Assembly: GCF_019457905.1 (NCBI RefSeq)
Contig: NZ_JAHZSV010000001.1
Span: forward strand, 248,001 to 312,000
DNA from: Flagellimonas abyssi
GTDB taxonomy: Bacteria > Bacteroidota > Bacteroidia > Flavobacteriales > Flavobacteriaceae
Direction of reading: 5' to 3'
Length of the DNA stretch: 64,000 nucleotides
The notes beneath the pieces were generated by a model that saw only the letters and a program-made list of their open reading frames with translations, was not told the DNA's origin and searched no databases. The stretch's first letter is position 1. Each line of letters opens with the position of its first letter. Shown here in pieces: positions 56,256 to 63,255 of the stretch. Position numbers and translations under genes: made by a program.

Positions 56256-57134
56256 ATGAAAACCGTAAAATTGATTCCGGGGGAGCTACATGGTGAAAAA
56301 ATCATTTTAATCCTTTTTGACCCCAATCCTGTGATACATAATCACGTCCTTGGTTTGCAGGGCATAAAAAGAAGACCTTTAGATGGAAACCTTTATTTGA
56401 AGTATTCTGCCACAAGCGTAGGTGTTCTGTTCCATCATCTGCGAAAGATAAATTGCTATGTGGACTACTCCGAGTTTCCTCCCAAGCCATTTGAGGCACC
56501 AATTAAGGAAAAACGGCTCTCTTTACCCCCCACTGACCCGTTTCACCATGAAGAATTAATAAGGTTCCGGCGTTGGCTTGAAGAAAAAAGGCTGAGTCCC
56601 CACACCGTAAACACCTATGTGGAAGTAACCCGTTTTTTTATGCGGTATTCCATCAATCTTAAACACAAAACCTTGTTGGCACTTATTTATTCTGGAGGTC
56701 TACGCATTGGCGAGGCCGTTAACCTGAAAGTGAACGATATTGATCGCCATCGGATGCTGATACACATTAAGGGCGGAAAAGGGAAAAAGGATAGGTATAC
56801 GCTGTTATCCCAAAGTTTTTTGACCCTATTCCATGAGTATTATAAGCACTTTAAACCGAAGGTGTACCTGTTTGAAGGGCAGAATTCTAAAAAATACAGT
56901 ACGAGCAGTGCGCAGCGCGTTTTACGAAATGCAGTTGTAAAAGCTGGAATTCAGAAGGAAGTTACGTTGCATACGCTTAGGCATAGCTTTGCAACGCATT
57001 TTCTGGAAAATGGAACGGATATCCGCTATATACAAGAGTTATTGGGGCATAGCAGTCCTAAGACCACCATGATCTACACCCATGTTACCGAGAATAGCAT
57101 ACAGAATATTGGCAATCCATTCGATGAGCTATAA
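56256..57134 (+). CDS. Tyrosine recombinase/integrase with core-binding deletion
   Basis: A 292-residue tyrosine recombinase of a Bacteroidota family with an N-terminal arm domain (KTVKLIPGELHGEKI). All catalytic residues are visible: Arg in YSGGLRIGEA, Lys in GGKGKKDRY, His-x-x-Arg in HTLRHSFATH, His in LGHSSPKTT and Tyr in MIYTHV. Typical family members are 365-380 residues. Here the core-binding domain jumps from TYVEVTRFFMRYS to INLKHKTLLALIYS, so about 75 residues are missing in frame. DNA binding is likely impaired. It sits at the head of the cassette array and is followed by a 111-base gap holding a possible attI-like site. Confidence 0.9.
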   Translation: MKTVKLIPGELHGEKIILILFDPNPVIHNHVLGLQGIKRRPLDGNLYLKYSATSVGVLFHHLRKINCYVDYSEFPPKPFEAPIKEKRLSLPPTDPFHHEELIRFRRWLEEKRLSPHTVNTYVEVTRFFMRYSINLKHKTLLALIYSGGLRIGEAVNLKVNDIDRHRMLIHIKGGKGKKDRYTLLSQSFLTLFHEYYKHFKPKVYLFEGQNSKKYSTSSAQRVLRNAVVKAGIQKEVTLHTLRHSFATHFLENGTDIRYIQELLGHSSPKTTMIYTHVTENSIQNIGNPFDEL

Positions 57135-57245
57135 TAATGGTTATATTGCGATGTAAGAAAATAAAACATGCAACTATACTGAACGAATATTATCAAAACC
57201 TAAGCATAGCCTTCCAATTTGGCGGCCTAATAGGGAGAAAGTTCA
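57135..57245. other. Possible primary (attI-like) site between recombinase and first cassette
   Basis: An AT-rich 111-base gap. It differs from the between-cassette spacers because it does not end in the conserved ACC or AAG before the first GTT core. Its role as the array's primary insertion site is an inference from its position only. Confidence 0.35.
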
Positions 57246-57254
57246 GTTACCTGC
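57246..57254 (+). repeat. 5' core of cassette 1 (GTTACCTGC)
   Basis: GTTACCTGC, whose exact reverse complement GCAGGTAAC occurs after the cassette gene at 58182-58190. The same core and its complement also bound cassette 4 (60704 and 61215). Confidence 0.7.
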
Positions 57255-57281
57255 AAGCTAAAAAAACATCGTGCTTAAATA

Positions 57282-58172
57282 ATGAACAGTCATAAAATCA
57301 ACAATATTTTAGAACATTTCGATTATCGACTGTTGGAAAACCCTGAATTTAAGGAAGATTCAGTTCGTGAAGAAATAGTTCTTCCAATAATCAAAGGTTT
57401 AGGGTATAGTGCAAATAAACCAAACCAAATTATTCGGAGTAGAAATTTAATCCATCCATTCGTTGCAATTGGCTCGCAGAAAAAGAAAATTTATATTATT
57501 CCAGACTATCTTTTTGAAGTCAATGACAAGCCAAGCTGGATTTTAGATGCAAAGTCACCTACGGAATCAATAATAAAATCTAAAAATGTTGAACAGGCAT
57601 ATTCTTACGCAATTCATCCTGAAATAAGAGCAAGATTTTTTTCGCTCTGTAATGGAAAAGAATTTGTCCTTTATAGTGTAGACAATTTTGAACCACTTAT
57701 GCATTTCCAAATGCAGGCAATACCATTATACTGGGAAAATCTTAAAGCTATTTTATCACCTAAAAATGTATTTTCAACAAATAGTCTTGAATACAAAAAA
57801 GATTTAGGATTACACCTTAAACGGCTTGGATTTGACAAAAATACGATTTTAATTTTCCCTCAAATACCAGTTACAAACATAACTCAACTTGACAATGATA
57901 TGTTCACTATCAATGTCGGCGGAGCTACTTTAAATGAAACAACTTATGTGGCAACGTTTGATTTTCATCTGGACGTTCTAAAACAACTGAAAGGAAAAAT
58001 TCCTGATGACGGATTTGAAATGTTATTGACTCGTAAAAAAGAAGGTCGTGTCGCTGTGCGATTTCCGGACAGAGCTTATATGGTGGATGTAGAATGTGAA
58101 ATCGGACAAAAATTGGAGGAAAATGATAAAGAAATTTTCTTGCCATTAAAATTAACACGAATAATAAACTGA
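57282..58172 (+). CDS. Stand-alone type I restriction HsdR N-terminal-like protein (cassette 1)
   Basis: A 296-residue protein resembling the N-terminal nuclease region of type I restriction subunits: EDSVREEIVLPIIKGLGY, then the PD-(D/E)xK-type core PDYLFEVNDKPSWILDAKSP with Asp and Lys positions. No helicase domain follows, so it cannot translocate DNA as HsdR does. The composition is clearly more A/T-rich than the chromosomal genes to its left. It occupies one cassette, starting 27 bases after the core and ending 9 bases before the 3' core. The function, possibly defence or DNA processing, is inferred only from the domain. Confidence 0.8.
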   Translation: MNSHKINNILEHFDYRLLENPEFKEDSVREEIVLPIIKGLGYSANKPNQIIRSRNLIHPFVAIGSQKKKIYIIPDYLFEVNDKPSWILDAKSPTESIIKSKNVEQAYSYAIHPEIRARFFSLCNGKEFVLYSVDNFEPLMHFQMQAIPLYWENLKAILSPKNVFSTNSLEYKKDLGLHLKRLGFDKNTILIFPQIPVTNITQLDNDMFTINVGGATLNETTYVATFDFHLDVLKQLKGKIPDDGFEMLLTRKKEGRVAVRFPDRAYMVDVECEIGQKLEENDKEIFLPLKLTRIIN

Positions 58173-58181
58173 AAAAAGCCA

Positions 58182-58316
58182 GCAGGTAACAATGTATATA
58201 AAAAATAGGCGAAATAGTAATGAAATCAAGGCTTTTGGCTCGTTTGAAACTTTGTGCTCAACCGAAAGTTTAGAGCTTCGAAATCGCCTACTTTCCATAT
58301 ACTAACCGTTGTGCGT
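58182..58316. repeat. Recombination-like structured site 1
   Basis: Begins GCAGGTAAC (58182-58190) and ends at the next 5' core GTTGTGCGT (58308-58316). Inside, TAGGCGA (58206-58212) is complementary to TCGCCTA (58284-58290), AAACTTT (58247-58253) to AAAGTTT (58265-58271), and TATA next to AACAATG faces TATACTAACC before the next GTT. The whole can fold into one long imperfect hairpin. The sequence is highly similar to site 4 at 61215-61350. Confidence 0.75.
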
Positions 58317-58333
58317 AATTTAAAATTAGTACT

Positions 58334-58873
58334 CTGAAGCAAACATTTGAATATAAATCAAGATGGATTTGGTACTTCTTTTGGAGTTGGCTCCTCTTAG
58401 GAATAGTTTTAATTTACTGGCTGTTTATTGAAAAGTCTGAAATTTTAATTGCATTAAAAAATCTGGACTTGCCACAAATACTCAAATATGGAATTCTTAC
58501 ATATTTTTTAGTTCTAATCATCAACGAATTACTTTGGTTCTTATTTGGTAAGTATGAGATAATTATTGACCGAAAGAATATATCGACAAGAAAAGGATAT
58601 GGACTTTACAAGTTGAAAAAGAATTACAAAATTTCAGAAATTGCTAACCTCAAAATTCTTCACAATGTCAAAAGTGACCCCTATATCAGACTGAATATTT
58701 TTTGGAGTCTATATGCACCTCACAAGGAGGTTATTGGATTTGAATACAACGGAAAGGAAAGAAAAATAGGAATGGGAGCTAAGGATTTTGACGCAAATGG
58801 AATTAAAAGTAAAATTGAGGAAAATAAAAACTACGCACAACAAAGAACTGAGTTAAAAAACAAGTTCTTTTAG
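58334..58873 (+). CDS. Membrane protein of unknown function (cassette 2), start uncertain
   Basis: The frame is open from 58319 and lacks ATG, GTG or TTG in the first part; CTG at 58334 is a possible start and ATT at 58325 another. Two membrane helices are visible (YFFWSWLLLGIVLIYWLFI and LKYGILTYFLVLIINELLWFLF), followed by a PH-like domain (YEIIIDRKNISTRKGYGLYKL). The original end is changed: native reading would continue through the site to CAA CAA TGG CTA TAA, but an IS110 element inserted there supplies the present stop at 58873. Function unknown. Confidence 0.6.
   Translation: MKQTFEYKSRWIWYFFWSWLLLGIVLIYWLFIEKSEILIALKNLDLPQILKYGILTYFLVLIINELLWFLFGKYEIIIDRKNISTRKGYGLYKLKKNYKISEIANLKILHNVKSDPYIRLNIFWSLYAPHKEVIGFEYNGKERKIGMGAKDFDANGIKSKIEENKNYAQQRTELKNKFF
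58833..58841 (+). repeat. 3' core of cassette 2, left half of site 2
   Basis: ACGCACAAC is the exact reverse complement of the cassette 2 5' core GTTGTGCGT (58308-58316). The rest of the site lies on the far side of the IS110 element at 60045. Confidence 0.7.
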
Positions 58874-59833
58874 TTTAATTTCGAAACATAGTTTTCATCA
58901 TAGGGCAGCCCAGATTTTGCAATGGCAAATGCCTGCTTCAACAGTTTGTTCGATACCGCTATCAATGCCAGTTTCTTGCTTTTTCCCTTGGCCGTTGCGT
59001 TCATAGATTTCCAGGCACGCTTTGTTGTGCTTGCAGGCGGAAAAAGCGCATAGGAACAATAGATTTCTCAATTTTCTGTTACCGACCTTACTTATCCTGC
59101 TCTTTCCCCTTACGCTGCTGCCCGAACGTCTGGTCGTGGGAGTTATTCCCGCGTAATTGCACAACTGTCCCGCATTCTCGAACTTGGTAAAGCCATCCGT
59201 CAATATGATCAGCAAGGCCACCGTTTTGTCCCCAAGTCCCGGTATGCTCTTCAAGTTCGTCAGCTGCCTTTGCTGCGTTTTCTTGACCAATGCTAGCAAT
59301 CTCGACTGAAGGGCCTCCAGCTCCCTGTCCAGGCTTTTCAATGTTCGCACCAAGGATGAATGGACTGCCCTTGAGGGTATGCCCAGGACCTTTTCACCGT
59401 GCAGCTTGTTCTTTACCTGTGTCCGCTGTTTGAGATAGATGTCCATCAGGGCCAACAATTGGAGACTCTCCGCTTGGTCCTCGCCCTTGCCGTCGTACAG
59501 GGGAACAGCGTTGACCTTGGCATACTCCGCTATGGCCTTGGCATCGCTCTTGTCCGTCTTGACCTTGGAAAGCTTCATCTGCACAAAACGTTTTACGGAC
59601 AAAGGGTTCACAACCGATACGGCCATGCCCTGGTCATAAAGGAACTGGGCCAATAGATAATGGTAATAACCAGTGGCTTCCATTACCACTAGACTGTTGG
59701 GGTTTAAACTCCTGAAATAATCCCTGAACCCCTTCAAGGTGTTCGGGTACTGATGGTGAACACCCTCATGGTGGAACACATCAAATACATCCTTGCTGAT
59801 GTCCACTCCGTGGATTTCTTTATCTTTATTCAT
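58870..59833 (-). pseudogene. IS110-family transposase, frameshifted near the C-terminus
   Basis: Starts at the ATG at 59833 (MNKDKEIHGVDISKDVFDV). DEDD RuvC-like acids are visible: D in GVDISKD, E in VMEATGYYH, and D residues in VKTDKSDAKAIAEYA. The conserved IS116/110/902 C-terminal domain is present (SIPGLGDKTVALL, GITPTTRRSGSSVRGK with the catalytic Ser). Near 58995 the frame changes: past IYER the present frame runs on to a TAG at 58898-58900, whereas the typical KGKSKKLALIAVSNKLLKQAF...LPYDENYVSKL ending is in another frame and stops at 58870. The frameshift probably disables it. Confidence 0.85.
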
Positions 59834-59858
59834 AGGAAAATGTTTTGGAAAGGACGCT

Positions 59859-59998
59859 CCACTTAAGCTTCAACAACTTGAAATCGAGATCTAGGTCTCA
59901 CAGAACTGAACGAATTCTTGAGTGGAAAAGAGAGGGGGTCATCAATGTTGACGGAATCGATACTTCCTATGGCTATATTGACCTTGTTCCTCTCTTTT
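59859..59998 (-). ncRNA. Candidate bridge RNA of the IS110 element
   Basis: On the strand of the transposase and upstream of it, two adjoining large stem-loops. The first has a 10-bp perfect stem AAAAGAGAGG / CCTCTCTTTT (59926-59935 with 59989-59998) around a loop of about 50 bases; the second has arms CCACTTAAG / CTTGAGTGG (59859-59867 with 59917-59925, one mismatch). Two internal loops in the transposase-upstream end is the layout described for IS110 bridge RNAs, which pair with target and donor DNA. Assignment is by position and shape, not by a model search. Confidence 0.5.
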
Positions 59999-60044
59999 GT
60001 TCTTTCTGATTTATGACTATAATTTAATCAGAATCAAACTTAAG

Positions 60045-60169
60045 ATGGCTATAAGTAATTGCTTGTTCTCGCCTACTTCTGAAAATCCTAGCGGATTTTC
60101 AGTTTGGTGTGTACTTGCAAAGTTAATCGCTAAACCACGCAACTACTCATAGCCGAGACCGTTGTAAGC
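60045..60169. repeat. Right half of site 2, ending at the cassette 3 5' core
   Basis: Begins ATGGCTATAAG and ends with the core GTTGTAAGC (60161-60169). GGCTAT near the start is complementary to ATAGCC (60149-60154), matching the outer arms of the other sites. TCGCCTACTT, shared with sites 1 and 4, and a perfect 8-bp hairpin GAAAATCC / GGATTTTC (60081-60100) lie inside. Confidence 0.65.
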
Positions 60170-60209
60170 TATTTGAGAAAACGCAAAAAAATAAAGCTAC
60201 TAATCTAAG

Positions 60210-60674
60210 ATGAGACTAAACGAATACTTAGCGGACCGACTAAAAGAGGTTTTTACAGAAGGCAAATGGGTTATTGGCACAAATTTCAAAGACCAAATAA
60301 TTGACCTTGATTGGAAACAAGCAACTCGAAAAATAGATGACTTCAACACTATTGCCGATTTGACTTTTCACATTGATTACTATATAGCCGGGGTGGCAAA
60401 CGTTCTTAAAGGCGGAACACTTGATATTCGAGATAAATATAGTTTTGATTACCAACCAATAAAGTCTGAACAAGATTGGAAAAATTTAGTGAATAAGTTC
60501 TGCCTTGACTCGGAAGAATTTATTGAACTTGTGGAAAAGATGACTGACGAAAAAATATTATCGGACTTTGTAGATAAACAATATGGAACTTATTACAGGA
60601 ATATTGATGCTATGATTGAACATACTTATTATCATCTTGGACAAATAATACTAATTAAAAAACGGATTAAATAA
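60210..60674 (+). CDS. DinB/DUF1572-like protein (cassette 3)
   Basis: A 154-residue helical protein with the expected histidine positions of the DinB superfamily: FHIDYYIAGV near residue 53 and EHTYYHLGQIILIKKR at the C-terminus. The DEKILSDFVD region is typical of the family's third helix. It occupies cassette 3, starting 41 bases after the core and ending 5 bases before the 3' core GCTTACAAC. Substrate unknown. Confidence 0.78.
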   Translation: MRLNEYLADRLKEVFTEGKWVIGTNFKDQIIDLDWKQATRKIDDFNTIADLTFHIDYYIAGVANVLKGGTLDIRDKYSFDYQPIKSEQDWKNLVNKFCLDSEEFIELVEKMTDEKILSDFVDKQYGTYYRNIDAMIEHTYYHLGQIILIKKRIK

Positions 60675-60679
60675 AAACT

Positions 60680-60712
60680 GCTTACAACAATGGGTATAAA
60701 ACCGTTACCTGC
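60680..60712. repeat. Minimal site 3 (33 bp)
   Basis: GCTTACAAC (60680-60688), exact reverse complement of the cassette 3 5' core GTTGTAAGC at 60161, is followed by only 15 bases (AATGGGTATAAAACC) and then the next core GTTACCTGC (60704-60712). It has the end motifs of the longer sites, AATG..TATA and ACC before GTT, but no long hairpin. Confidence 0.7.
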
Positions 60713-60731
60713 AAGCAAAAGAAACTGAAGA

Positions 60732-61241
60732 TTGAAATTAAGAACAGCATCAATACAAGACCTAGATTTGGTCCAATATTGGGACACGAAACAGCACGTG
60801 ATTGACTGTGACCCTGATGACGATTGGGATTGGGAAAAAGAACTTAACCAAAATCCTGAATGGAGGGAACAATTGATAGCCGAAGTAAACGGAGAATCAA
60901 TTGGATTTATACAAATAATTGACCCTCTATTGGAGGAAACTCATTATTGGGGAGAAGTTGAACCGAACAAAAGAGCTATTGATATTTGGATTGGAGAAGA
61001 ACATAATCTGAATAAGGGATACGGCACAAAAATGATGAATCTCGCTATTGAGAAATGTTTTGAAAACGAATTGGTGGATGGAATTTTAATTGACCCGCTT
61101 AAATCCAATACTAAAGCTCAAAGATTTTACGAAAGACTAGGATTTGAATTTGTTGAAGAAAGGGACTTTGATGGTACAACATGTATCGTATATGAATTAA
61201 AAAGAATAAAGCCAGCAGGTAACAATGTATACAAAAAATAG
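60732..61241 (+). CDS. GNAT family N-acetyltransferase (cassette 4)
   Basis: A 169-residue acetyltransferase resembling aminoglycoside 6'-type or ribosomal-protein N-acetyltransferases: MKLRTASIQDLDLVQYW at the N-terminus, the acetyl-CoA pyrophosphate loop GEEHNLNKGYGTKMMNLA, and the C-terminal NTKAQRFYERLGFEFVEER. The start is a TTG. The gene reads through the cassette's 3' core: the last nine residues (PAGNNVYKK) and the stop are encoded by the recombination-like site. The real target of acetylation cannot be told; resistance is possible but unproven. Confidence 0.85.
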   Translation: MKLRTASIQDLDLVQYWDTKQHVIDCDPDDDWDWEKELNQNPEWREQLIAEVNGESIGFIQIIDPLLEETHYWGEVEPNKRAIDIWIGEEHNLNKGYGTKMMNLAIEKCFENELVDGILIDPLKSNTKAQRFYERLGFEFVEERDFDGTTCIVYELKRIKPAGNNVYKK

Positions 61242-61350
61242 GCGAAACAGTGATAAAATCAAGAATATAGGCTCGTATCAAACCTTTTGTTCATACGAAA
61301 GTTTGGTGCTTCGAAATCGCCTACTTTTCATATACTAAACCGTTGTCCAT
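61215..61350. repeat. Recombination-like structured site 4
   Basis: Starts GCAGGTAAC (61215-61223), the exact complement of the cassette 4 5' core at 60704, and ends with the core GTTGTCCAT (61342-61350). Internal arms AGGCGA and TCGCCT, TCGTAT and ATACGA, and GTATAC next to AACAATG with TATACTAAACC can form a long hairpin. It is the near twin of site 1. Confidence 0.75.
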
Positions 61351-61368
61351 AACATAGAAATCAACAGA

Positions 61369-62541
61369 ATGTATAAAAATATCATTGCAGTACTACTTTT
61401 GTTATTAGGTATTAATCAGGTAAAATCACAAGATGTTGGACAAATTGTCATCGGCACAAAATATTCGCTTAGGTCTAATATCTTGCAAGAAGACAGGGAA
61501 TATTGGATTAGTCTTCCTGATTCATATAATAATAAAGAATCATCCTATAAGAGATATCCGGTGCTTATTGTACTTGATGGAAATTTGCACTTTAAGCCCA
61601 TAGCAGGAATGGTAAACTACATGAGTTCTGATGTATATAGAAGCTGGAAAATTCCAGAGATGATTGTGGTTGCTATTCAAAATGTAGATAGAAGAAGAGA
61701 CTACACACCAGACAAGGTCATTACAGTTAGAGAGAATAATACAGGCGGTGGAGATAGTTTTCTCAGCTTTTTGGAAGATGAACTTTTGCCTGAGTTAGAT
61801 CAAAAGTTTAGAACTGCCCCCTATCGAATACTTTTTGGACATTCTTTAGGTGGATTACTAGCTGCCCATACCTACATGAAAGAAGAGACTCTTTTCAATG
61901 CGTTCATTGCGGTTGACCCAAGTTTTGGAACATGGGACGAAGAAACCATGGATAAAAAATTAGATGCCGTAACCGAGCAGTCATTTGAAAGATTCATCTA
62001 CATAGCCACTGCCAATTGGGGCAAAAGGAATATCAGAAATCGTGACCGCCATGTTAGGTTATACGAGGCATTGAATAGTAAATGTGAAGGTAAGTTTCCT
62101 GCAAAATTGGAATACTTTGAAAATGAAACCCACGGTTCTGTTCCTCCAATAGCTTTTTATAATGGAATTTCAAGCATTTTTGAAGACTATGGGATTTCCT
62201 ATCGAGATGTGGAAAGCAAAGAACAACTAACTCAACATTTCAAGTCTCTTTCTCAGCGACTATCTTGGAATTTTAGTCCACCAGAATCTCTTGTTAACCG
62301 AATAGGTTATAGAATGTTACGGAGTAGAGACGAAAATGAAAAATCTAAAGCACTGGCCTTCTTTATCTTAAATACAGAAAACTTCCCCAATTCATTTAAT
62401 GCTTTTGATAGTTTAGGAGAAACTTATGAATCTCTCGGAGATAACAAAAAAGCAATCGAAAATTATAAAAAGTCACTTGAGCTAAATCCTAATAATGAAC
62501 ATGCCAAAATGAAGATACAAAGCTTAGGCAATAACCAATAA
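61369..62541 (+). CDS. Secreted alpha/beta-hydrolase with C-terminal TPR (cassette 5)
   Basis: A 390-residue protein with a signal peptide (NIIAVLLLLLGINQVKSQ). The esterase fold of the IroE/esterase-D type is shown by EYWISLPDSYN near residue 45, nucleophile Ser in ILFGHSLGGLLAAH near residue 161, and catalytic His in FENETHGSVPP near residue 250. A tetratricopeptide repeat follows (AFDSLGETYESLGDNKKAIENYKKSLELNPNN), an unusual combination that may mediate protein contact. The gene fills cassette 5. Confidence 0.85.
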   Translation: MYKNIIAVLLLLLGINQVKSQDVGQIVIGTKYSLRSNILQEDREYWISLPDSYNNKESSYKRYPVLIVLDGNLHFKPIAGMVNYMSSDVYRSWKIPEMIVVAIQNVDRRRDYTPDKVITVRENNTGGGDSFLSFLEDELLPELDQKFRTAPYRILFGHSLGGLLAAHTYMKEETLFNAFIAVDPSFGTWDEETMDKKLDAVTEQSFERFIYIATANWGKRNIRNRDRHVRLYEALNSKCEGKFPAKLEYFENETHGSVPPIAFYNGISSIFEDYGISYRDVESKEQLTQHFKSLSQRLSWNFSPPESLVNRIGYRMLRSRDENEKSKALAFFILNTENFPNSFNAFDSLGETYESLGDNKKAIENYKKSLELNPNNEHAKMKIQSLGNNQ

Positions 62542-62546
62542 ACACG

Positions 62547-62680
62547 ATTGGCAACAATGTATGAAAAGTAATCGTCAAGATGGTATGAATTAGTGGTCTT
62601 TAGTACTAACAAACATTCTTGTAATTTGAAAAGATACTATCAACTAATCGGCTACTATACTTATACTAAAGGTTATATGC
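62547..62680. repeat. Recombination-like site 5, last recognised core
   Basis: ATTGGCAAC (62547-62555) matches the complement of the cassette 5 5' core GTTGTCCAT in 7 of 9 positions, and is followed by AATGTAT as in the other sites. The site ends TATACTAAAG and then GTTATATGC (62672-62680). No complement of this last core was found in the rest of the window, so it is either the end of the array or the start of a cassette longer than what is visible. Confidence 0.6.
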
Positions 62681-62693
62681 AATGCGAACAAGC

Positions 62694-63071
62694 CTAGGAG
62701 CAGTCATCACAGACACCGGTCAGAACACAATTTGCATTTTGAACTTCATAGCCATTGGGAACTGAATACTCTACCGGAACTTGCAGGCATTCAATCGTAT
62801 CACATGACAGACACCTAAAATGAAAATGATGCTGAAAAACTTCTGATGGATCATCACACTTTTTGCAGATTGCAAAATATTGTTTTCCATCTTCTGCTAC
62901 AATTTTGTGGACTATATCATCCTCACAAAATCTATTCAGCACTCTATAAATTGTAGCTCTATTAATTTCAATATCCAACTGCCGTTCAATAGCATCTTGA
63001 CTTAATGCTTTTTTTGAACCTGAAAGCAAATCTAGTATCGCTTCTTTTGAAGGTGTATTTCTTCGATTCAT
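62694..63071 (-). CDS. Fur family transcriptional repressor
   Basis: A 125-residue metal-dependent repressor. The winged helix is visible (SKEAILDLLSGSKKALSQDAIER, then NRATIYRVLNRFCE). The metal site region has HHFHFRCLSCD, an additional CxxC in CKKCDD and the C-terminal CDDCS structural zinc pair. It is more Zur/PerR-like than a true Fur, but the metal cannot be told. It is divergent from the thioredoxin-reductase-like gene, with two matching palindromes between. Confidence 0.9.
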   Translation of the reverse strand: MNRRNTPSKEAILDLLSGSKKALSQDAIERQLDIEINRATIYRVLNRFCEDDIVHKIVAEDGKQYFAICKKCDDPSEVFQHHFHFRCLSCDTIECLQVPVEYSVPNGYEVQNANCVLTGVCDDCS

Positions 63072-63074
63072 ATT

Positions 63075-63097
63075 TTATTGCGAATATGTTGCAATAA
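63075..63097. promoter_or_regulatory. Fur-type operator copy 1
   Basis: TTATTGC-GAATATGTT-GCAATAA, 7-bp perfect arms around a 9-base centre; the minus-strand reading contains ACATATTCGC, the same core found in copy 2. It overlaps the TTG -33 element of the plus-strand promoter and lies just upstream of the Fur gene. Confidence 0.6.
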
Positions 63098-63118
63098 TAC
63101 GAAAAGATAGTATATTTG
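63089..63118 (+). promoter_or_regulatory. Promoter of the thioredoxin-reductase-like gene
   Basis: TTG at 63089-63091, a 19-base spacer and TATATTTG at 63111-63118 match the Bacteroidota -33/-7 consensus TTG-N19-TAnnTTTG. It is overlapped by operator copy 1 and followed by copy 2 near the transcription start. Confidence 0.5.
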
Positions 63119-63128
63119 ACCACATTTA

Positions 63129-63151
63129 CTATTGCGACATATTCGCGTTAG
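63129..63151. promoter_or_regulatory. Fur-type operator copy 2
   Basis: A 23-base imperfect palindrome with TATTGCGACATATTCGCG at its core; read against the reverse of copy 1 the two share TTGC-R-ACATATTCGC. It lies just past the expected transcription start of the plus-strand gene, a repression position. Confidence 0.55.
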
Positions 63152-63255
63152 CAAAATAAATGATAGGAAGAAAAATAATCAGGCTATTTGGGGGAAGGAT
63201 GTTAGTAATTGCCCTACCTATACCATTATCTCTCATTGGTCAATACAATAACAAA

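Follow-up and report, generated by a model that had tools for sequence, protein, structure and literature searches.

Within the 64,000-nucleotide stretch of Flagellimonas abyssi DNA analyzed here (the window), a tyrosine recombinase gene (56256-57134) is followed by five gene units, hereafter cassettes, each of which ends in a site; the recombinase, the cassettes, and their sites are all on the + strand. A motif scan of the window returned the ORF at 56256 as the only recombinase-like one, and the neighborhood is syntenic with a contig of [Muricauda] yonaguniensis (L070; recombinase locus L079). The five cassettes hold unrelated genes, namely an HSDR_N-like ORF, a gene of unknown kind, and DinB-like, GNAT, and esterase-TPR ORFs. 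Cassettes 1-4 begin with GTT plus an arm and end with the complementary arm plus AAC, as cassettes do in integrons; the two arms pair at six or seven of seven positions, beyond which all four cassettes show an A/C opposition at position 8 and then further pairs. The start and end arms of cassette 5 do not match, which we count against the explanation favored below.

The recombinase ORF (292 aa; PF00589) retains its R/K/H/R/H/Y catalytic motifs by eye. The preliminary description had supposed an intact recombinase homolog, a point that does not hold for the window: alignment places an internal deletion of 79 residues at junction 56654/56655, the DNA, apart from an in-frame gap of 237 nt, being 96% identical to an intact 371-aa gene (locus L082), and the family is not that of IntI. 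Downstream, the attI-like region (57138-57248) is damaged, in that the ATATAAACAAGTT motif found in related loci is absent beside the GTT of the first cassette. Cassette 1 (57246-58307), delimited by end complementarity, runs from GTTACCTGC to GCAGGTAAC plus site 1 and encodes a 296-aa ORF (57282-58172) with an HSDR_N or type IIG-like N-terminus (HSDR_N E 8e-5, below cutoff). Site 1 (58177-58321), whose bottom strand folds, comprises an R'' arm, an L'' arm, terminal hairpins, an L' arm, and an R' arm, with its AAC at 58188-58190 and its GTT at 58308-58310. Cassette 2 (58308-60160, from GTTGTGCGTA to TACGCACAAC; ORF 58469-58873) has a site split by an IS110-family element on the - strand (58843-60044, ends within 2 nt; transposase 58898-59833), which sits between AACA (58839-58842) and TG. 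The remainder of site 2 (60045-60174), of class B, reads GGCTATAAGTAATTGC, then GCAACTACTCATAGCC, then GTT at 60161. In cassette 3 (60161-60703; DinB-like ORF 60210-60674, just under the DinB_2 cutoff), the site is a 21-nt remnant without a hairpin (60686-60706). Cassette 4 (60704-61341; GNAT acetyltransferase ORF 60732-61241) shares its R arms with cassette 1, and is followed by site 4 (61210-61355), with its AAC at 61221 and its GTT at 61342-61344. Cassette 5 (61342-62671; esterase-TPR ORF 61369-62541) has ends that are no longer complementary, and its site, the last of the array (62553-62674), is degraded. With the recombinase and the attI-like region damaged, an insertion in site 2, and the hairpin of site 3 lost, the recombinase is probably dead and the array probably frozen and no longer mobile.

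Two further features were noted in this region. The GNAT ORF of cassette 4 is weakly similar to aminoglycoside 6'-acetyltransferase models, the best score (49 bits) falling far below the cutoff of 280. Past the array, a 20-nt inverted repeat (90%; 63080-63146) lies between the genes for a Fur-family regulator (62694-63071, - strand) and an FAD oxidoreductase (from 63160, + strand), and is likely an operator.

Sites 1 and 4 had been singled out earlier as twins of similar length that follow unrelated genes, and this was borne out. The intervals 58165-58305 and 61198-61338 are the two copies of a direct repeat, 141 nt long and 85% identical, while the preceding genes, the 296-aa HSDR_N-like ORF and the GNAT acetyltransferase, are unrelated; the twin corresponds to identical R arms and near-identical sites around different genes in cassettes 1 and 4. 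The sequence blocks said to be shared were only partly so: TAGGCGA and GCTTCGAAATCGCCTAC are in both sites, but TATACTAAACC is in site 4 alone, site 1 having TATACTAACC instead. The functional borders of the sites are AAC and GTT, at 58188 and 58310 in site 1 and at 61221 and 61344 in site 4.

Gene cassettes behind related recombinases

Searching named genomes for relatives of the recombinase yielded 529, the best 80 of which, mostly from Flavobacteriaceae with some from Bacteroidales, constitute the 80 loci referred to below. Sites were scanned for as AAC, a spacer, and a 6-nt arm, followed by the complementary arm, a spacer, and GTT, a pattern that ignores the arms outside AAC and GTT. Across 83 loci and the window, the scan returned 114 sites on the forward strand, eight on the reverse strand, and seven in shuffled sequence. 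With a slightly longer length limit, it placed 108 sites downstream of the recombinase gene in the 80 loci and six upstream of it or inside it. The sites of the 80 loci, like those of the window, point the same way as the recombinase gene.

The ends of cassettes were then compared using sites that had been chosen without reference to R arms. A cassette's own end matched its own start at six or seven of seven nucleotides in 36 of 51 cassettes, 25 of them perfectly, against 3% of random pairs; the 15 cassettes whose own end was not matched at six of seven nucleotides are counted against our reading. Matches of this quality between the end of one cassette and the start of the next were as rare as among random pairs (4/106), and the arms that flank a single site agreed as random pairs do (2.30 vs. 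2.48 of 7). Cassette borders and the complementarity of a cassette's ends can be read directly from these comparisons.

Exact 7-nt end links numbered 232 in 354,902 bases downstream of the recombinase genes, 142 in 715,020 bases upstream, and 57 in Markov versions of the downstream sequence. Exact links, which we used since chains with one mismatch permitted were too noisy, joined three to eight cassettes into chains downstream of the gene in 13 of 80 loci; no such chain occurred upstream (0 of 80) or in the Markov versions (0 of 80). Counting against our reading, 51 of the 80 loci had no exact chain of two or more cassettes, and 26 of these had no link downstream at all. Part of this shortfall arises because the available sequence stops within 3 kb downstream of the gene in 40 of 80 loci (within 3 kb upstream in 6 of 80), an excess that is expected if repeats break assemblies. 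Among junctions chosen by exact 7-nt end links, without regard to L arms, 69 of 81 had L arms of at least 5 bp; when arms were swapped between genomes, 21.7% did. These L arms are kept across sequence classes, and many different site sequences have a common architecture.

The site-1-like DNA itself is widespread, being present at E≤1e-20 in 59 of 299 Flavobacteriaceae genomes (its own included), more than expected by chance. Many of the matches listed in those genomes start at 58188 or stop at 58310 (query positions 1051 and 1173). Such abundance and such sharp borders are what MITE or REP-like repeats would display if they had spread by transposition and did not delimit cassettes. We regard this as scarcely credible, given that one architecture is common to many different site sequences, that the arm beyond the border differs between cassettes and is complementary to the far end of its own cassette, and that the sites form ordered arrays behind one recombinase.

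In 51 of 77 loci, the 320 nt that follow the recombinase gene contain a conserved motif, ATATAAACAAGTT, with no more than one mismatch; this count is to be read with the derivation of the motif from six of these same loci. Of the 77 control stretches, similar in length and taken from before the gene, a single one contained the motif with three mismatches, and no control came closer. Behind the gene, the motif has no more than three mismatches in 62 loci, 27 of which contain an exact 7-nt partner of the first cassette arm within 4.5 kb. This attI-like motif, like the co-location of arrays and recombinase, is apparent in the sequences compared, and so is past mobility. For instance, of ten listed stretches of at least 300 nt common to different arrays, five start at a cassette GTT and have different flanks; the other five, which do not start at a GTT border, are counted against our reading. 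Other genera contain some of the same cassettes, with breakpoints at GTT. A cassette common to L083 and L093 is 92% identical over 593 nt, with homology from CGTTAGCACTT to AAGTGCTAACA and unrelated flanks; another (86%) is located mid-array in one of L097 and L136 and at attI in the other; and a third, common to L082, L107, and L141 (76-81%), has differing left flanks. In a [Muricauda] yonaguniensis contig (L070:9111-10920), one cassette holds two genes between two sites, encoding an AriA-like protein, which PtuA models also match, and an AriB-like protein; the pair is likely a PARIS-type antiphage defense.

The element inserted in site 2 was assigned to the IS110 family by NCBIfam model NF033542, and relatives were found in 7 of 79 genomes searched, its own included. 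We examined 11 of 12 other IS loci (L285 was left out), which represent nine separate elements because two elements are split in two pieces. The IS ends lie in the R''-L'' spacer, between AAC and the L'' arm, in the window and in 8 of these 11 loci (8 of 9 elements), each of the eight having at least one IS end visible; the target sites belong to several classes. Judging by these positions, the element targets cassette sites. It resembles the IS1111-attC insertion sequences in being an IS110-family element that inserts at a constant position within the recombination sites of cassettes (cf. PMC11187229), but differs in occupying the R''-L'' spacer of flavobacterial sites and in being placed by NF033542 at the level of the IS110 family.

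Folding and strand bias of the sites

Several of the earlier expectations concerning folding failed. Compensatory changes between sites 1 and 4 had been proposed in two inner stems, and these do not persist across 32 copies. The AAACTTT/AAAGTTT pairing was broken in 22 of 224 cells of the 32 class sites and changed yet still paired in 11, and TCGTAT/ATACGA is complete, by eye, in site 4 alone among the 32 rows. In the alignment of many copies that had been suggested as a check, two pairs had changed on both sides across the 32 sites, a number that 7 of 500 shuffles also reached. Folding both strands of single window sites, another suggested check, gave structures no more stable than those of shuffled sequences (z -0.4 to -1.5, four strands). 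The outer stem of the site-1 class is 98.2% paired and nearly invariant (alignment A5, 32 sites), and covariation is weak within the window's site class because the stems hardly vary there. We count this weak covariation, along with the unexceptional folding of single sites, against the explanation favored below.

Evidence for selection on the fold was obtained across site classes. Top-strand A.C oppositions numbered 161, against four G.T, at positions 13-22 in a set of 81 unique stems whose first six pairs are perfect because the scan demands it, although other mispairs also occur at these positions; on the bottom strand, these 161 are G.T pairs. Two stem places have a near-fixed A.C/G.T (64/81 and 57/81 unique stems), and the R stem has a third, an A.C at position 8 that is fixed in 33 of the 36 cassettes whose ends match. 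Further, the bottom strand folds better than the top in 91 of 108 sites and the top better in 14, compared with 60 and 41 of 101 upstream control segments. When sites were rejoined as in a circle, with their own cassette's start, they folded better than the array junctions in 40 of 51 cases and worse in 4. The strand bias is visible in the sequences themselves, and the excess of top-strand A.C over G.T indicates that it is the bottom-strand fold that is kept; together with the better folding of rejoined sites, it points to folded bottom-strand DNA, not to RNA of the gene strand.

The same observations bear on the idea that the sites are RNA-level structures at the 3' ends of genes, such as terminators, riboswitch-like elements, or other cis-acting RNAs, for which one may cite their position after genes and their hairpins. 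The transcript would be the top strand, in which selection on RNA would favor G.U over the A.C mismatches that predominate 161 to 4; moreover, cassette starts find their pairing partner hundreds of bases off, at the end of the same cassette. An Rfam search of 57000-63200 gave no family at or above its gathering score, the two matches at a permissive threshold being at chance level. We consider the RNA explanation extremely unlikely. That the sites are under selection for a folded single (bottom) strand, in the manner of attC, is supported by the sequence comparisons. The attC-like reading first put forward for the twin sites accordingly survives by way of complementary ends, L arms, bottom-strand bias, mobility, and the attI-like motif, and not by way of the compensatory pairs on which it had been built.

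The recombinase family

Intact homologs of the recombinase are about 371 aa long. The best NCBIfam model for the intact homolog tested was XerA NF040815 (207.5 bits, cutoff 220), and the integron integrase model TIGR02249 gave 198 bits (cutoff 265). In an alignment to IntI4 (2a3v), the IntI-specific insert (I2) was missing; by eye, it is present in a true IntI from the same class (L162). A tree of 56 rows grouped 16 IntI proteins in one clade (100/100), apart from 30 homologs (97/83). In a tree of 80 rows, the IntI clade was again apart (100/99), and the 30 homologs formed a clade with 11 other proteins (99/91), nested among 59 XerA-like Bacteroidota rows (88/88). Among structure matches to the model of an intact homolog, the integron integrase 2a3v ranked first (E 3e-15), followed by XerA (5hxy).

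The family has an N-terminal domain of about 95 residues (model pLDDT 90). Its first-ranked Foldseek match was the HARP domain of SMARCAL1 (4o66; E 0.025, probability 0.97); VIA scored XPB best (Z 7.2) and HARP lower (Z 4.4), both below the trust level of Z 8. No Pfam model exceeded its cutoff for this domain: DUF5710 (E 6.9e-5) and HARP (E 0.0022) each appeared in 2 of 36 members, and a further search with Pfam HARP gave one row at 16.3 of 25 bits, below cutoff. A sequence search of the PDB gave nothing under E 0.27 for the domain. A HARP/XPB-DRD-like fold is weakly suggested by the modeled structure, and we treat the likeness as a lead because the Z scores are below 8 and Pfam HARP was found below cutoff in 2 of 36 members. 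HARP and XPB domains serve branched or damaged DNA.

Arrays were also present near other XerA-like recombinases, with linked site pairs in 7 of 31 further loci (62 strands; Markov sequence, 1 of 62 strands). In four of eight loci with short recombinases (L218, L219, L221, and L223), the sites are divergent and upstream. Taken with L078, these loci have XerA-like recombinases that are short (272-287 aa) or of 355 aa, and divergent upstream sites, which is the classic integron layout. Five relatives with a similar N-terminal domain by eye (L258, L261, L263, L265, and L269) had no detected array, suggesting that the recombinase may have other roles, or that another enzyme may move cassettes.

One such enzyme would be a true IntI encoded elsewhere in the genome, the neighboring recombinase being a bystander. 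Sites of this kind may be IntI substrates, as IntI1 recombined one attC of the Polaribacter phage P12002L (PMC9892861). We judge this arrangement very unlikely: the F. abyssi genome had no TIGR02249 match at E≤1e-66, and the sites are directly behind the recombinase, together with a conserved attI-like motif. In a survey of 198 Bacteroidota genomes, 57 encoded a true IntI over the family cutoff; 56 of these are outside class Bacteroidia and none is of the same family, leaving one in the same class, and one of 149 Bacteroidia genomes had an IntI over cutoff.

The affinity of the family for XerA-type models likewise invites comparison with Xer/dif-type modules, such as the pdif modules of Acinetobacter, in which host XerC and XerD would act on double-stranded sites. 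In the F. abyssi genome, the next matches listed for the recombinase are 34% and 32% identical to it and are the only two to reach E 1e-55 with the XerA model; we took them for XerC/D. The array-adjacent recombinases are distinct in the tree from three XerC/D-like rows, and the sites, unlike short double-stranded dif sites, are lengthy imperfect hairpins that show a strand bias and have arms particular to each cassette, making an Xer/dif origin very unlikely.

A probable integron-like platform in Flavobacteriaceae

It is very probable, we conclude, that Flavobacteriaceae possess an integron-like platform for gene cassettes, with the repeats as its attC-like recombination sites. Each cassette would consist of one gene (sometimes two or more) and one site. 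It would start with GTT and a cassette-specific arm and end with the reverse complement of that arm and AAC, followed by L'' and L' arms around variable hairpins. A single bottom strand would fold into one long hairpin, built of about 14 bp from the R arms as they stand in the excised circle and about 16 bp from the L arms and interrupted by an asymmetric spacer; the fixed G.T pairs would favor this fold over that of the top strand. The neighboring tyrosine recombinase most likely binds the folded strand and cuts in the GTT box; the single-stranded substrate, the point of cleavage, and the identity of the acting recombinase are what we infer in this scheme. The enzyme would then attach the cassette either at a second site or at the attI-like motif that closely follows the recombinase gene, and cassettes would in this way be inserted, excised, and reshuffled singly.

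Integrons and this platform have much in common. Both have short tandem cassettes in one orientation that vary between strains, with past mobility legible in the sequence; an attI-like site, here recognized by sequence, beside the recombinase gene; GTT and AAC boxes; and complementary ends within one cassette. As judged from sequence and folding energy, they also share a bottom-strand fold and a structure conserved more than sequence. XerA-type recombinases (NF040815) are alike in providing the best NCBIfam model for the intact homologs and, with 5hxy, one of the top structure matches, but the present recombinase differs in having its N-terminal domain of about 95 residues (weakly HARP/XPB-DRD-like) and in adjoining cassette arrays. 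It differs from integron integrases in being without the IntI-specific insert and outside the IntI clade. The sites differ as well, one point of contrast being that in the window and the 80 loci they share the direction of the recombinase gene. The R''/R' consensus of integron attC is RYYYAAC/GTTRRRY; here, R' fits GTTRRRY in 7 of 108 sites and GTTR in 106, and consists of seven variable paired bases and a fixed G.T. Extrahelical bases in the outer 16 bp of the L stem were absent from 43 of 64 unique sites; 18 sites had one on the L'-R' arm and one site had one on the R''-L'' arm, whereas those of attC are on the R''-L'' arm (PMC2727003). As far as can be told from sequence, the system works like an integron; by the criterion of its integrase, it is no member.

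Integrons are known from Bacteroidota (PMC8618304), and the one complete integron that IntegronFinder 2 reported for Bacteroidetes proper is that of Salinibacter ruber (PMC9024848). Near true IntI genes, a simple pattern for canonical attC gave six matches on both strands of 12 loci and no arrays. Among the open-access papers searched, we came across none describing a cassette system of Flavobacteriaceae that pairs with a recombinase other than IntI. In phage P12002L (L291), nine sites of the present architecture were identified by eye on the + strand between 30009 and 40970; one further site is on the - strand (14624). The region of these sites encodes methyltransferase, Mom-like, and HNH genes on the - strand, reversed relative to the bacterial arrays. 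A blastn search of a phage collection gave no match to site-1-like or class-B DNA, and a search of viral_contigs found three weak relatives of the recombinase.

Tentatively, and as a possibility that we would not yet put at even chances, Bacteroidota may have a parallel line of integrons, in which a XerA-like recombinase without I2 reads the hairpin with a HARP/XPB-like N-terminal domain, and fixed G.T pairs select the strand instead of extrahelical bases. Such a line may be common to a large share of marine Flavobacteriaceae. Integrons spread antibiotic resistance. With a recombinase of another clade beside arrays that bear the hallmarks of bottom-strand recombination, the origin of such systems and their choice of strand become testable, as does the movement of genes, including a likely PARIS-type defense pair, among marine Bacteroidota and their phages.
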